Shown here piece by piece: positions 41,058 through 46,981 of a stretch of 64,000 bases of DNA. The translations under genes and the position numbers were made by a program. Source of the stretch: Geothrix paludis (GTDB lineage Bacteria > Acidobacteriota > Holophagae > Holophagales > Holophagaceae); contig NZ_JAKZLC010000004.1 of NCBI RefSeq assembly GCF_022808815.1, positions 124,001 to 188,000 of the forward strand, in the 5' to 3' direction. How positions within the stretch are numbered: the first letter of the stretch is position 1; each line of letters opens with the position of its first letter. The notes below the pieces were generated by a model. The model was not told the DNA's origin, did no database searches, and was given only the letters and a program-made list of their open reading frames with translations.

Positions 41058-41438
41058 TCAGTGCTCCCACTCGAAGGCGCCCTTGCCCCAGGCGTAGATG
41101 AAGCCCACGAGCAGGGTGGCCATGAAGCTCAGCATGGCCGCGAAGGTCCACAGGGCCTGTTTGAAGGTCACGGCCCAGGGCAGGAGGAAGGCGGCTTCCA
41201 CGTCGAACAGGATGAACAGCATGGCCGTGAGGTAGAACCGCACGGAATACTTGTGCCGCGCCCCGGGCTGCTGGATGGGCACGCCGCACTCGTAGGGGCG
41301 CAGCTTGGCCTCCTGCGGGTTGCGGGGCTTGAGCAGCGCCAGCGCCTTGCCGGAGAGGAACAAGATCGCGACGGCCGTCACGGCGGCGACCAGCAGCAGG
41401 ATCAGGACCGGCAGGAAGGGCGATACGGGTTGGGCCAT
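41058..41438 (-). CDS. nuoA: NADH-quinone oxidoreductase subunit A
   Basis: 126 residues with three membrane helices and the conserved loop YECGVPIQQPGARHKYSVRF, then FDVEAAFLLPW. It is the first gene of the nuoABCD run and borders a divergent acyl carrier protein gene across a 139-bp gap that should hold both promoters. Confidence 0.95.
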   Translation of the reverse strand: MAQPVSPFLPVLILLLVAAVTAVAILFLSGKALALLKPRNPQEAKLRPYECGVPIQQPGARHKYSVRFYLTAMLFILFDVEAAFLLPWAVTFKQALWTFAAMLSFMATLLVGFIYAWGKGAFEWEH

Positions 41439-41577: not shown

Positions 41578-41835
41578 ATGAGCGACCTCAAGCTGCGCGT
41601 CAAAGAGATGATCATCGAGCGCCTGAAGCTTGAGGGCCTGACCCCGGACCAGATCGAGGACCAGGCCCCCCTCTTCGGAGAAGGGCTGGGGCTCGACTCC
41701 ATCGACGCCCTGGAACTCGTGCTGGGCATCGAGCAGGTGTTCGGCGTGAAGATCGAGGACGAGGCCGCGGGCATGCGGGCGTTCAAGTCCGTCCAGGCCC
41801 TCACGGACTTCATCGCCGAGCACGCCAAGGCCTGA
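41578..41835 (+). CDS. Acyl carrier protein
   Basis: 85 residues, with the phosphopantetheine site Ser in GLDSIDALELV. It heads a short set of fatty-acid/polyketide-like genes: hotdog dehydratase, ketosynthase, Cys-less ketosynthase homologue. This suggests a dedicated carrier rather than the housekeeping AcpP, though that is inference. TAGAAT at 41542-41547 may be its -10. Confidence 0.93.
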   Translation: MSDLKLRVKEMIIERLKLEGLTPDQIEDQAPLFGEGLGLDSIDALELVLGIEQVFGVKIEDEAAGMRAFKSVQALTDFIAEHAKA

Positions 41836-41845
41836 CGTCCCGCCC

Positions 41846-42250
41846 ATGGACATCCTGGCCCACCTCCCGCACCGCGCGCCCCTGCTCCTCGTGGACCGGC
41901 TGCTGGAGCGGGAGCCAGGCTTGCGGGTGGTGGCCGAAAAGCTCATCACGGCCAGCGAACCCTACCTCCAGGATCATCCCGACGGGCGCGCCCAGGTCCC
42001 CGGCCCCCTGCTGCTCGAGATGCTGGCCCAGGCCGGCGGCTTCCTGGAGGCCGGGACCCTCCACGGGGCGTCCATTTTCCTGGCGGGCGTGCGGGACGCC
42101 CGGTTCCTTGCCCCGGCCCTTCCCGGGGACCGGCTGCGCCTGGAGGTGGCCGCGGAGGGCGCCTTCGCCGGACTGATGCGCCTGCAGGGCACGGCGAGCT
42201 GCGAAGGGCGCGACCTCTGCACGGCGACCCTTCTGGTGAAGCGCCTATGA
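41846..42250 (+). CDS. FabZ/FabA-like hotdog dehydratase
   Basis: 134 residues. The FabZ-type start LPHRAPLLLVDR holds the catalytic His, and PGPLLLEMLAQAGG supplies the acidic residue on the hotdog helix. It should dehydrate a 3-hydroxyacyl chain on the neighbouring carrier. It starts 10 bp after the ACP stop and overlaps the ketosynthase by 4 bp. Confidence 0.88.
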   Translation: MDILAHLPHRAPLLLVDRLLEREPGLRVVAEKLITASEPYLQDHPDGRAQVPGPLLLEMLAQAGGFLEAGTLHGASIFLAGVRDARFLAPALPGDRLRLEVAAEGAFAGLMRLQGTASCEGRDLCTATLLVKRL

Positions 42251-43425
42251 ACCGCGTGGTGGTCACAGGCCTGGGCATCGTGAGTTCGCTGGCGCTGGAC
42301 CGCGAAGGCACCTGGTCCGCCATGCTCGCCGGAGGGGACGGCCTGGGGGCCCTCTCCCGCCTGGACCTGCCGGCGGAACCGGCCCAGATCGCGGGCCAGG
42401 TGGCCCTGAAACCCCTCCGGCACCAGACCCTCTGCGAGGTCGCCGCACTGCGAGCCCTGGCGGAGGCGCTTGGCGGCTTCCAGCCCGGTGGCGACCCGGC
42501 CCGCATCGGCGTCTTCCAGGGGGCGGGCACCAGCGGCCTGCCCGTGGCCGAGACCTACCTGAACGACCGGCTGGCCGGGTGTCGCGGTCGGGCCGCGGAG
42601 TCCGCCTACCAGAGCCCCTGCACCGTCACGGATGCCCTCGCCCGGGGGCTCGGCGCCGAAGGCCCCCGCGCCACCGTCATGAACGCGTGCTCTTCGAGCC
42701 TGCTGGCCCTGGGCCAGGCCTGGGAGCGCCTGGCCGCTGGCGAGCTGGACCTGGCCGTGGCCGGCGGCGCCGAGGGTCTCTGCCGCACCACCTACGCCGG
42801 GTTCTCCAGCCTCAAGGCCGTGGATGCCCAGAAATGCCGCCCCTTCAGCCGGGACCGGGCAGGTCTCAACCTGGGCGAGGGCGCCGTGCAGATCCTGCTG
42901 GAACCCCTGGACCGGGCCCTGGCCCGGGGCGCCACCATCTACGCCGAAGTGCTGGGCTACGGCGCCAGCATGGACGCCCACCACGCCACGGCGCCCCATC
43001 CCGAAGGCGAGGGCGCCGCCCGGGCCATGGCCATGGCCCTCCGCACGGGCCGGCTGGATCCCGCCGAGGTGGACCTCGTTTCCGCCCACGGCACAGCCAC
43101 CCCCGCCAACGACGGCGCCGAGTGCCTGGCCATCCGCCGGGCCCTGGGCGCGGCCGCCGACGCCGTGTCCATCACCAGCACCAAGAGCCAGTTCGGCCAC
43201 ACCCTGGGCGCCGCCGGAGCCTTCGGGGCCGCCGCCACCATCCTGGCCCTGCGCGATCAGGTGGTGAGCCCCACCCTGCGACTGGAGGACCCGGACCCGA
43301 CCTGCGACCTGGACTGCACGCCCCTGGTGGCGAAGCAGCGCCGGATCCGCGCGGCGCTGGTGAATGCCTTCGCCTTCGGCGGCAACAACGTGAGCCTGCT
43401 GCTGGCCCGCTGGGGTGGCGCATGA
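42247..43425 (+). CDS. Beta-ketoacyl-ACP synthase (active KS)
   Basis: 392 residues, FabF-like thiolase fold. The catalytic triad is complete: Cys148 in NACSSS, His281 in SAHGTATPAND, and Lys313/His318 in KSQFGHTLGAAG. It condenses malonyl-ACP with an acyl chain. It is coupled to the dehydratase upstream. A second KS homologue lacking the Cys lies 319 bp downstream, behind a palindromic insert. Confidence 0.92.
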   Translation: MNRVVVTGLGIVSSLALDREGTWSAMLAGGDGLGALSRLDLPAEPAQIAGQVALKPLRHQTLCEVAALRALAEALGGFQPGGDPARIGVFQGAGTSGLPVAETYLNDRLAGCRGRAAESAYQSPCTVTDALARGLGAEGPRATVMNACSSSLLALGQAWERLAAGELDLAVAGGAEGLCRTTYAGFSSLKAVDAQKCRPFSRDRAGLNLGEGAVQILLEPLDRALARGATIYAEVLGYGASMDAHHATAPHPEGEGAARAMAMALRTGRLDPAEVDLVSAHGTATPANDGAECLAIRRALGAAADAVSITSTKSQFGHTLGAAGAFGAAATILALRDQVVSPTLRLEDPDPTCDLDCTPLVAKQRRIRAALVNAFAFGGNNVSLLLARWGGA

Positions 43426-43483
43426 CACACGCAAGCGGTTCAGCCCGATTCTTTTCTTGCTGCACGGCCTCTGCGCCAGAAAA

Positions 43484-43710
43484 GCGGAACACAGAAGACA
43501 CGGAATTCCACGGAAGACACGGAAGGGGCTGTGTCGCTCGTCGCGCGGGCCCGCCGAAGGCGGCTTCCGGCGCAGCCGGAAGTGATCCCGGGGGCGCCTG
43601 GACCGCGTCCCAAAGCGCGGCGCTGGCGCCCCCGGGATACAGCCCGCGCTTTCGGAGTGGACGCCCCGTGCCTTTTCCCGTGTCTTCCAGCTTTCTTCCG
43701 TGGCTTCCGC
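43484..43710. repeat. Nested palindromic element between two ketosynthase genes
   Basis: Outer imperfect arms at 43484-43529 and 43670-43710 contain repeated ACACGGAA and CCACGGAAG units. Inside lie a perfect hairpin CTTCCGGC/GCCGGAAG (43564-43582) and a 14-bp perfect inverted repeat ATCCCGGGGGCGCC/GGCGCCCCCGGGAT (43585-43598 and 43625-43638). No gene fits here. The spacer 43426-43744 holds nothing else. It may be a non-autonomous mobile element. Confidence 0.75.
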
Positions 43711-43744
43711 GACCAGCTCTTTCCCGCTTTGAATGCGAATCACC

Positions 43745-44833
43745 ATGAGCCACCCAGCCGATCTCGTCATCACGGGCCTCGGCCTGGTGCTCCCCTGTGG
43801 AGATGGCGTCGAAGCCGCCCGGGCCAACCTTGCGTCCGGCACACCCTGCTTCTCGGATCTGCCCGAGTCCCTAGGCGCCGGCCGGGGCGCGGCCTGCGCC
43901 GCGTTCAACCCGGCTGGCATCATCCCGCCCATGCAGCTGCGGCGCCTGGATCGCGTCTCGCGCTTTGCGTGGGTCGCGGCGCATCAGGCTTTCGGGGACG
44001 CGGGCCTGGATCCGAAACCGGTGGGCGACCGCATCGCCGTGGCCGTGGGCACCATGACCGGCGGCAGCGAGGCCAGCGAGGCCTTCATGCGGCCCTACCT
44101 CCAGCGGGGGCCCGACGGGGCCTCGCCCCTGCTCTTCCCCAACACCGTGGCCAATGCCGCCAGCGGCCACCTGGCCCTGGCCTTTGGCCTGAAGGGCCCC
44201 AGCGCCACCTTCGTGGACCGGGAGAGCGCCGCCCTCGCGGCCCTGGAGCAGGCGGCCCGCTGGCTGCGCGCCGGCCTGGCGGATGCCGCGCTGGTCCTGG
44301 GAGCAGATGGCCTCTTCCCCCTGCTCCTCGACATCTGCTGCGGCGCCCGCCTGCTGGCCCGCCACGGCCATCCCGAGATCGGCTCCGGCCGGGGCTTCCT
44401 GCCGGGCGAAGGGGCCCAGGCCTTCCTGCTGGAGCGGCGCGACCGGGCCGAGGCCCGGGGCGCCCGCCCCCGGGCCGTCCTGCGGGCCCTGGCCTCGCGA
44501 TCCACGCCGGGGGACGGGATCGAGGCCCGGGCCCGCGCCTTGGCCGAGGCATCGACACAGGCCCTCGGTGAGGCCGCTCCGACGCGCTGGATCGGCGGCA
44601 GCAACGGCCTGGGCCGGCTCGACGACCTCGAGGCCCGCCTGGCCGCCGCCCATCCGGACTGGCCCGCGGCCCGCTTCCCCAAGGCCCTCTGGGGCGAGTT
44701 CGGCGGCTCCGGCGGCCAGCTGCTGGCGGCGGCCCTGCTGGAGCCTGCGGACCGCGCCCTCGTCACCGCCCCCGCCAGTTCGGGCGCCCAGTTCGCGGCG
44801 CTGCTCGAAGGCGTTAGGCTGGAACGACGATGA
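43745..44833 (+). CDS. Ketosynthase homologue without catalytic Cys (chain-length-factor-like)
   Basis: 362 residues, thiolase fold similar to the preceding KS. At the Cys position it has Glu160 (GPSATFVDRES against GPRATVMNACS), and the SAHGTAT histidine motif is missing, with GGSNGLGRLDD in that region. This is how chain-length factors of type II polyketide and aryl polyene systems differ from their KS partner; those usually have Gln there. It may pair with the upstream KS. The start at 43745 has no strong ribosome-binding site. Its end overlaps the SPOR gene (ATGA). Confidence 0.8.
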   Translation: MSHPADLVITGLGLVLPCGDGVEAARANLASGTPCFSDLPESLGAGRGAACAAFNPAGIIPPMQLRRLDRVSRFAWVAAHQAFGDAGLDPKPVGDRIAVAVGTMTGGSEASEAFMRPYLQRGPDGASPLLFPNTVANAASGHLALAFGLKGPSATFVDRESAALAALEQAARWLRAGLADAALVLGADGLFPLLLDICCGARLLARHGHPEIGSGRGFLPGEGAQAFLLERRDRAEARGARPRAVLRALASRSTPGDGIEARARALAEASTQALGEAAPTRWIGGSNGLGRLDDLEARLAAAHPDWPAARFPKALWGEFGGSGGQLLAAALLEPADRALVTAPASSGAQFAALLEGVRLERR

Positions 44834-45360
44834 CCCAGCGCGACCAGATCAGCATCGGCAGCCAATCCATCCTCTGGGTGGCGGGTGTGGGCGTGGGCCT
44901 GGTCACCCTGGCCTTCGTCCTGGGTGTGCAGGTTGGCAAGCAGGGCGCCGCCCTGCGCCGCCCCGCCCAGAAAGGCGTGGAGGAGGAGCTCAGAGACCTT
45001 CCCGAGCCGCTGGTGGATCAGCTCAAGATCTTCGAGGGCGACAGTCCGGACAAGTTCGTGGCGGCCCCGCGGGTGGACGCCACGGCTCCCAAGCCGGAGC
45101 CCAAGGCTGAGCCCAGGTCCGAGGCCGCGCCAAGCGCGAGCGGCGCCTGGACCCTCCAGCTCGTGTCCACCTCCGATGCGGCCGAGGCCAAGCGTGTAGC
45201 CGACAAGGCCAAGGCCGCTGGCTTCGCCACCACCACCCTCAAGGACAAGGGCCATCTGAAGGTGCGCCTCGCCAAATCGGCGGACCGCGCCGCCATCGAC
45301 AAGACCGCCGAGAAGCTCAAGAAGGCGGGCTTCAAGCCCTTCGCGGTGAAGGCGGAGTAG
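44830..45360 (+). CDS. SPOR-domain membrane protein
   Basis: 176 residues. One membrane segment near 14-35, a Pro/Lys-rich linker, then a SPOR domain at about 105-176 (WTLQLVSTSDAAEAKRVADK and later HLKVRLAKSADRAAI). SPOR domains bind denuded glycan strands of peptidoglycan at division sites. Translational overlap with the ketosynthase homologue may be incidental. Confidence 0.88.
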   Translation: MTQRDQISIGSQSILWVAGVGVGLVTLAFVLGVQVGKQGAALRRPAQKGVEEELRDLPEPLVDQLKIFEGDSPDKFVAAPRVDATAPKPEPKAEPRSEAAPSASGAWTLQLVSTSDAAEAKRVADKAKAAGFATTTLKDKGHLKVRLAKSADRAAIDKTAEKLKKAGFKPFAVKAE

Positions 45361-45379: not shown

Positions 45380-46840
45380 TCAGGGTTTGGGATAGACCCG
45401 GATCCCCACCCATTTTTTAAGGATCACCTTGCCCGGCGCGAAGCCGCGGGGCTTGCTGATGTCGGCGATGCGGGCGAGATGGACCTCCACCTTGCCGCCG
45501 TCCCGGGCCTTGCTGTGGTAGGCGGCCAGCTCGGCGGCGCGCTCCAGCACGTGACGCGGCAGTTCGCTCAGCTTGTCGGGATTGCGGATGACCACGTGGC
45601 TGCCGGGCACGCTGGCCACGTGCAGCCAGAAGTCCGTGTTGTCGGCCACCTTGAAGGTGAGCTGGTCATTCTCCGCATCGCCCTTGCCGATGAGCACCTC
45701 GAAGCCGTCCACCATGACGCTGCGGAAGGCAGTGCCCTTGCCATCCTTGCGTTTCACCTCCGCTCCGCCCATCCGCTTCGTCCCCTTGCCCTTCGCCGAA
45801 TCTTTCGCGTTCCCCTTCGCACCCAGTTGTCGCGCGAGGGGCGGCTCCGGCGCAAGTCCCGCGGCCTCGGCTTCCAACCGCTTCGCCCAGGCGGCCCGCT
45901 CGCGGGCCAACTCCGCCTCCAGTTCCCGCACCCGCGCCAAACCCCGCTCCGCCTTCTTGGCCGCGGCGAACCAGGCTTGGGCAGCGTCTTCGGCGAGGCG
46001 TCCTTCCGGCAGAGACACGCGCGTCCCGTCCAGCAGCACGGCCTCGCCCGTGGCCCCCTTGAGGCGGTAGAGCTCTGCCGCCAGGCGCTGGGCCTGGACC
46101 TTGAGGGGCAACACGGCCTCGTGCTTCGCCCGGTCCCGGGCCAGGGCCTGGGCCAGGCGGTCCATGCGCGCGACCTCCGCCAGGCGCTTCCGCTCCGCCG
46201 CGGCCTTCGCGGGAGCCAGAATCAGCGCCTCGGCACGTCCCTCGGACCAGGCGTGATGCCGCTCCAGCAGGCCCCCATCGCCCTCCAGGACCTCGGGGAT
46301 CTCCCCCGCCAGGGCCCGTTCCAGGTCCGCGCCCCAGCGCTCCCGCCAGCGACGGAGCGGGGGCGGATCCTCGGAGGGCGCCGGCGCCGCAGCGGGGAAG
46401 GGCGAGCCAAGCCCCAAGCGGGGGATCTGGGTGTCCAGGCCGTCCGCCCGGATGCCGGCCCGGCCGGGGATGGCCTGGAAGGCCAGGCGCACGGTCTCCA
46501 GGCGGCCCGTGATGGCTCGTCGTTGGAAGACGAGGCCCAGCCAGCGTTCCCGGGGATCCCCCTCCACGGCCTTCAGCCTCGCCCCCTGGAGCCAGGGGCC
46601 CCAGAGCTTCCCGCTGTCCTTCGGGGCCTCGGCCTGAAGGCGCGCCCAAGCGGGATGGCCCGTGTCCAGCAGCCAGAGTTCGGGCCTGGGCTGGAGCAGC
46701 AGCACCCAGCCCTCGGCGGCCTTCCGGCCCGCCCAGCGCAGGCCCAGGGCCCGGTTCGAGGCCCAGACGGCCTCGACGGGGAGCTCGCTCCGTTCCCGGA
46801 GCCAGGTCCGGCCCAGGGCCAGGATCAGGGGTGCATCCAC
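45380..46840 (-). CDS. NFACT-family protein (RqcH/Rqc2-like)
   Basis: 486 residues from a GTG at 46840 preceded by AGGTGAG. The C-terminal NFACT-R domain is clear (GFEVLIGKGDAENDQLTF, NTDFWLHVASVPGSHVVIRN). The middle is a long coiled coil, and a basic Gly/Lys-rich linker (GAKGNAKDSAKGKGTKR) lies between. Family members bind tRNA and stalled 50S subunits and add C-terminal Ala tails. The N-terminal domain is poorly conserved: where RqcH has Asp-Arg, this protein shows ERWLGLVF. Tailing activity is therefore uncertain. Confidence 0.85.
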   Translation of the reverse strand: MDAPLILALGRTWLRERSELPVEAVWASNRALGLRWAGRKAAEGWVLLLQPRPELWLLDTGHPAWARLQAEAPKDSGKLWGPWLQGARLKAVEGDPRERWLGLVFQRRAITGRLETVRLAFQAIPGRAGIRADGLDTQIPRLGLGSPFPAAAPAPSEDPPPLRRWRERWGADLERALAGEIPEVLEGDGGLLERHHAWSEGRAEALILAPAKAAAERKRLAEVARMDRLAQALARDRAKHEAVLPLKVQAQRLAAELYRLKGATGEAVLLDGTRVSLPEGRLAEDAAQAWFAAAKKAERGLARVRELEAELARERAAWAKRLEAEAAGLAPEPPLARQLGAKGNAKDSAKGKGTKRMGGAEVKRKDGKGTAFRSVMVDGFEVLIGKGDAENDQLTFKVADNTDFWLHVASVPGSHVVIRNPDKLSELPRHVLERAAELAAYHSKARDGGKVEVHLARIADISKPRGFAPGKVILKKWVGIRVYPKP

Positions 46841-46981
46841 GGACTCACCTTTCTCTGTTCTTTCCACCCGACGGTGGCCATCATGGGGCAGCCTCCCCCT
46901 CCAGCATCCCATGCCTGGCCCCCGGGAAGGTCCCTACCTCCGCCCTCATCCGGCTTTCCCCCACCACCTGACGCTGGACCC

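Follow-up and report, generated by a model that had tools for sequence, protein, structure and literature searches.

What does a locus make that encodes an acyl carrier protein (ACP), a dehydratase (DH) and two ketosynthase (KS) homologues, one of which lacks the catalytic cysteine? Such a four-gene module lies on contig NZ_JAKZLC010000004.1 of Geothrix paludis (genome of 3.4 Mb), in the 64,000-nucleotide stretch that we analysed (positions 124,001 to 188,000 of the forward strand; 'the window', from whose first letter coordinates of the locus are counted). We judge it reasonably probable that the intact ketosynthase, KS1, and the Cys-less KS2 work as a heterodimer of KS and chain-length factor (CLF) that builds a dedicated acyl chain, probably of the polyene type, on the module's own ACP, with ketoreductase (KR) and malonyl loading borrowed from fatty acid synthesis (FAS). 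The parts and the KS–CLF principle are already known; what is new is that the composition is minimal, that it is conserved at a single site of the core genome and that Geobacteraceae share the KS–CLF group, features of which a limited literature search found no description. The locus is arranged as follows.

41578..41835, + strand: ACP, 85 amino acids (aa), PRK09184-type, with attachment Ser41 in the motif GLDSID
41846..42250, + strand: DH of the hotdog 3-hydroxyacyl-ACP type, 134 aa, with FabZ-type His9 and Glu58
42247..43425, + strand: ketosynthase KS1, 392 aa, with intact Cys148, His281, Lys313 and His318
43426..43732, no strand: dispersed repeat separating KS1 from KS2, with copies elsewhere in the genome; outside the pathway
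43745..44833, + strand: KS2, Cys-less ketosynthase homologue and proposed CLF, 362 aa, with Glu160 and Glu318
44830..45360, + strand: SPOR-domain protein, 176 aa, its gene overlapping that of KS2 by ATGA
41058..41438, − strand: nuoA, divergent neighbour and locus marker throughout the family
45380..46912, − strand: NFACT-R domain protein (domain match), convergent neighbour

All residues named in a preliminary description of this DNA are in place, from GLDSID of the ACP and the hotdog DH to Cys148, His281 and His318 of KS1, and KS2 indeed has Glu160 and no HGT motif, reading IGGSNG where AHGTA is expected. WGE (Glu318) replaces the second FGH of KS2, and the Lys313-equivalent is retained (KS2 residue numbers count from the start at 43745; the frame is also open from 43733). 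Pfam assigned the ACP to PP-binding (41.7 bits), DH to FabA-like (49 bits), KS1 to the N and C domains of ketoacyl-synt and KS2 to the N domain. The ACP exceeded the NCBIfam cut-off of NF006617/PRK09184 (71.4 versus 70), and KS1, KS2 and DH fell below every NCBIfam cut-off among the matches listed.

Relatives of KS2 were found at 42 Holophagaceae loci (59–93% identity) and 38 more distant ones, those of named Geothrix relatives being about 78–93% identical to the KS2 studied here. ACP, DH, KS1 and KS2 stand beside nuoA in unchanged order at 40 of the 42 Holophagaceae loci, the other two being truncated by contig ends, and every locus holding the four genes (40/40) keeps the order ACP–DH–KS1–KS2. 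KS1 accompanies KS2 at 78 of all 80 loci; at the remaining two the upstream sequence is missing or the KS1 match lies at a contig end. The four-gene array is no chance arrangement, and both the co-occurrence of the two KS proteins and the conservation of the gene set in relatives, which the preliminary description had proposed to check, are borne out. When 297 Acidobacteriota genomes were searched with a profile, KS2 relatives exceeded a strict threshold in 28, which include the sampled members of the genus Geothrix and two further Holophagaceae genera, with none above that threshold in four other Holophagaceae genera. For two genomes of the same genus (G003, G027) the apparent absence of KS2 reflects a KS1 gene that ends at the contig end, with KS2 off the contig; G143, a complete sibling Holophagaceae genome, lacks the module.

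The DH and KS1 genes overlap by ATGA, and a 4-nt ATGA overlap is also the commonest KS1–KS2 junction among the loci (the distance obtained for L109 is an artefact of match order); it bears on heterodimer formation only indirectly. Close relatives have this overlap, whereas here the gap is a ~300-bp dispersed repeat that abolished the translational coupling of KS2 in this genome. Two more near-complete copies (85–86%) and about 17 partial ones occur in the same genome, and related elements occupy the same KS1–KS2 gap in loci L040 and L042.

An inserted repeat, together with the loss of the Cys and both His residues, could mark KS2 as a decaying FabF duplicate in a block without joint function, a reading that we find scarcely credible. 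The ratio of nonsynonymous to synonymous substitution rates (dN/dS) against close relatives was about 0.15–0.22 for KS1 and 0.18–0.31 for KS2, and all module genes are under purifying selection. In the Holophagaceae examined the KS1 catalytic residues are intact and Glu160 and Glu318 of KS2 are kept. Over 45 sequences, 24 columns are invariant. Pairing with KS1 at 78 of 80 loci and a separate clade in the trees described below likewise argue against decay, which tree, constraint and pairing rule out as far as sequence allows. The question raised earlier of whether KS2 belongs among FabF decay products is thus answered by the trees and the dN/dS values, which place it elsewhere, and the proposed KS with a Cys-less partner gains support, KS2 being a constrained lineage of its own.

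Every Holophagaceae KS2 aligned has Glu at the Cys position; other Acidobacteriota have Asp (or Glu) there, Geobacteraceae have Phe and E. coli ApeC has Arg, while two Streptomyces CLFs carry Gln and His. At the second-His position of the alignment, Holophagaceae share Glu with other Acidobacteriota and with a highly reducing Streptomyces CLF. The residue at the Cys position varies freely among CLFs and, because the clades differ in it, Glu reads as a lineage-specific choice and not as a sign of decay; it is less unusual than first stated. The accompanying generalization that the partner usually has Gln applies to the Streptomyces aromatic CLF and fails for aryl polyene (APE) systems, in which E. 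coli ApeC has Arg. An AlphaFold2 model of KS2 (predicted local distance difference test score, pLDDT, of 92) has a complete ketoacyl synthase (KAS) fold with both thiolase halves; a fold search with it matched FabF at Z 45.3 and an ishigamide KS/CLF chain at Z 43.9 (352–357 residues aligned), values that are tied and do not separate KS from CLF. For KS1 the best sequence match was PDB 9s5h, an entry whose protein identity was not established.

Both KS1 and KS2 are placed outside FabF and FabB. In a first joint tree KS1 grouped with the ApeO proteins of E. coli, Cupriavidus and Acinetobacter (97/87), Geothrix FabF with E. coli FabF (100/99), and Holophagaceae KS2 with its counterparts in Geobacteraceae and other Acidobacteriota. 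A second tree, which also took in ApeR and ApeO of sibling Holophagaceae, gave ApeO a clade to itself (100/100), set KS1 next to Geobacteraceae and acidobacterial KS1 (86/84) and split the side uniting ApeO and KS1 from FabF/FabB/ApeR at 89/83. An approximately unbiased (AU) test did not reject the grouping of KS1 with ApeO (p 0.316). Because adding Holophagaceae ApeO moved KS1, we do not claim ApeO membership; the safe statement is that KS1 is neither FabF nor FabB, that it belongs to the KS–CLF side of its family and that it is most closely related either to its counterparts in Geobacteraceae and other Acidobacteriota or to ApeO. The pairs of Holophagaceae, Geobacteraceae and other Acidobacteriota form a KS–CLF group close to ApeO and not surely inside it. 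The KSalpha of a highly reducing Streptomyces system, a single reference, grouped with myxobacterial and FCPU426 KS (100/99), apart from KS1.

In the proposed pathway, a dedicated type II synthase whose elongation core would be these four genes, AcpS, the sole phosphopantetheinyl transferase found (a single family match in the genome, in which gene absences rest on individual gene searches), would activate the module ACP, and FabD would load malonyl. KS1 would perform transfer and decarboxylative condensation in a heterodimer with KS2, which would be catalytically dead and shape the length-determining half of the acyl tunnel. Reduction of the growing chain would fall to a FabG of the FAS type and dehydration to the dedicated FabZ-like enzyme; many short-chain dehydrogenase/reductase (SDR) proteins are encoded in the genome, the KR-like ones all unlinked to the module. 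Because the set has no enoyl reductase, double bonds would remain through repeated cycles; the resulting acyl chain, polyene-type or unsaturated in another way, would go into a lipid or pigment, possibly destined for the envelope. Pigment formation in E. coli needs most core APE genes (PMC8253772), and a four-gene set must therefore borrow functions.

Several observations weigh against this proposal. At the Holophagaceae locus the KS pair has ACP and DH as its sole pathway partners, with no KR, acyltransferase, thioesterase or exporter, which agrees with its earlier description as minimal and leaves product release and destination unexplained. A cellular FabI-like enzyme could saturate the chain, and support for the exact position of KS1 is moderate (86/84, 89/83) and shifted once more ApeO sequences were added. 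A limited literature search found no Geothrix pigment phenotype and nothing relevant on a described Geothrix polyketide or pigment.

Could the module instead be a reduced APE system that keeps equivalents of the core genes apeE–apeP–apeO–apeC, has lost or scattered the rest, and makes an aryl polyene pigment? Three of its four genes directly match E. coli APE parts (ACP 52% identical to its equivalent, carrier protein C_RS05630; KS1 37% to ApeO; DH 32% over 72 aa to C_RS05575), the first tree points the same way, and the AU test does not reject the grouping. With the APE clusters of E. coli CFT073, Xenorhabdus and Acinetobacter (ApeE/ApeP/ApeO/ApeC) it shares a dedicated ACP of family PRK09184, a FabZ-like DH, an intact KS with a Cys-less CLF partner and a FAS-like type II organization. 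Unlike them, however, it has no ApeR, KR, ammonia lyase/ligase, thioesterase, acyltransferase, LolA, MMPL or DUF3261 gene (in the window, the nuoA–NFACT interval holds no lyase or ligase), its KS1 branches outside the ApeO clade in the tree that includes Holophagaceae ApeO, and its KS2 is complete in both thiolase halves, of which ApeC, roughly half a KS in size, mostly retains only the first (PMC8358021). True APE clusters, moreover, exist in sibling Holophagaceae genera (L188 in G143, L189 in G160, L190 in G316), with ApeR 56–58% and KR 52–57% identical to those of E. coli CFT073 and with an ammonia lyase and/or ligase in L188 and L190; ApeO of two of the three groups with proteobacterial ApeO, away from KS1. 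G160 carries an APE cluster and the module at separate sites, and the module is therefore a separate system and not simply an APE-cluster remnant. A reduced APE system thus seems to us quite improbable. Elsewhere in the G. paludis genome there is no canonical APE cluster, given only three KS-type genes at E ≤ 0.001 (FabF, KS1, KS2), and a candidate for an APE transport module was dismissed, being a single MMPL gene (C6) alone between DnaC-like and methyltransferase-like genes. The APE cluster of G143 has an ACP–KS–CLF trio inside it on the opposite strand.

It is also unlikely that the module makes a specialised fatty acid of fixed length, whether saturated or 3-hydroxy (for lipid A, an ornithine-type or a long-chain lipid), with enoyl reduction by the FabI of FAS. 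A FabI-like gene is encoded (L141:2180-2959) and near-universal presence in the genus at a single core-genome site fits a housekeeping lipid, but the dedicated DH and the ApeO-related KS–CLF pair indicate unsaturated chains, and a lipid acyltransferase is not linked in the family. Far less probable still is an anaerobic unsaturated-fatty-acid branch of this anaerobe, in which an isomerizing dehydratase and a ketosynthase would act in the manner of FabN/FabO: although DH and KS adjoin, and the main FabZ (C1:237279, 120.4 bits) and the module DH (48.5 bits) are the genome's only two FabA/FabZ-family proteins, such a branch leaves the Cys-less KS2 and a second ACP without a role, KS1 lies outside FabF/FabB, and the complete sibling genome G143 lacks the module. 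Primary FAS was rejected as a role because a separate ACP, FabF and FabZ exist, the first two adjacent at C1:315610 and 315930 and stronger matches than those of the module. A thioesterase match at C2:58996, 28% identical and unlinked, was rejected as a pathway member.

The KS–CLF pair we propose has close parallels in the APE-like clusters of Geobacteraceae (L076–L096), which share the KS1–KS2 adjacency and the same KS–CLF group in trees; in Geobacter L079, identity to the module is 52% for ACP, 35% for DH, 38% for KS1 and 35% for KS2. Unlike the module, the Geobacter cluster holds a KR, a malonyltransferase of the MCAT-like type, a thioesterase, a lipid A-type acyltransferase, LolA/LolB-like proteins and MMPL, and Geobacter KS2 has Phe where Holophagaceae KS2 has Glu. 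The order in L079 is B12-radical SAM protein, lipid A-type acyltransferase, ACP, malonyltransferase-like protein, thioesterase, second radical SAM protein, KR, KS1, KS2, DH, LolA, LolB-like protein and MMPL; its ACP, KR, thioesterase, KS, DH and MMPL each have a match among the APE proteins of E. coli. The two radical SAM proteins (one B12-binding; L079:689-6030), with no ammonia lyase evident, suggest a non-aryl or differently made starter. In other Acidobacteriota (L097:6800-10758, L102:6780-10760, L089:120-4072) the KS–CLF pair is followed by a thioesterase and, as we read the sequences, two exosortase-like membrane proteins; all three pairs lie near an smc gene, and those of L097 and L102 also near a dCMP deaminase-like gene.

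Highly reducing type II polyketide synthases (ishigamide-like; reference, a plasmid of Streptomyces sp. NBC_01296) resemble the module in having KS, CLF and their own ACP, and their CLF has a VGE motif at the second-His position, a likeness to KS2; KS1, however, does not group with their KSalpha, and the module has no cluster KR or phosphopantetheinyl transferase. Aromatic type II systems (actinorhodin type; reference, a plasmid of Streptomyces sp. NBC_00158) have the KS–CLF principle in common with it and differ in the Gln of their CLF, in a minimal set without a dehydratase and in an aromatase/cyclase in the cluster, of which there is none in the block.

Tentatively, the Holophagaceae, Acidobacteriota and Geobacteraceae pairs may form a KS–CLF class of their own; its four-gene core in Holophagaceae would draw on fatty acid synthesis and supply these iron reducers, throughout the family, with a polyene-type lipid or redox-active compound not described so far. 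Read as we propose, the module would be smaller than any other conserved KS–CLF acyl-chain system compared here, and it stays at one site in the core genome of a genus from soil and sediment, unlike a mobile pigment cluster; the KS–CLF principle would be used in Acidobacteriota and Geobacteraceae beyond known aryl polyene and polyketide systems, and the module would be a testable lead to an uncharacterised Geothrix lipid.

Downstream of KS2, the operon probably continues into the SPOR gene (44830–45360), which would be co-transcribed with KS2. Despite co-orientation and overlap, the two genes are apart in locus L074, so that the SPOR gene is probably a passenger, and a pathway role of its product is doubtful. 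Extra genes between nuoA and ACP in Holophagaceae loci L065 and L074 resemble, on reading their sequences, regulator, DinB-like and TonB-dependent-receptor-like proteins and were rejected as pathway genes for this likeness to non-pathway proteins. In another family of the class, a lone KS2-like gene (316–326 aa; L153:10703-11683, L154:10475-11425) follows a tatD-like gene with no adjacent ketosynthase. Elsewhere in the G. paludis genome, locus L141 (G000:C5:56500-76400) encodes two KASIII-like proteins, two small ACPs, an AMP-ligase-like protein and SDR proteins, and this acyl cluster adjoins sugar-nucleotide and glycosyltransferase-like genes.

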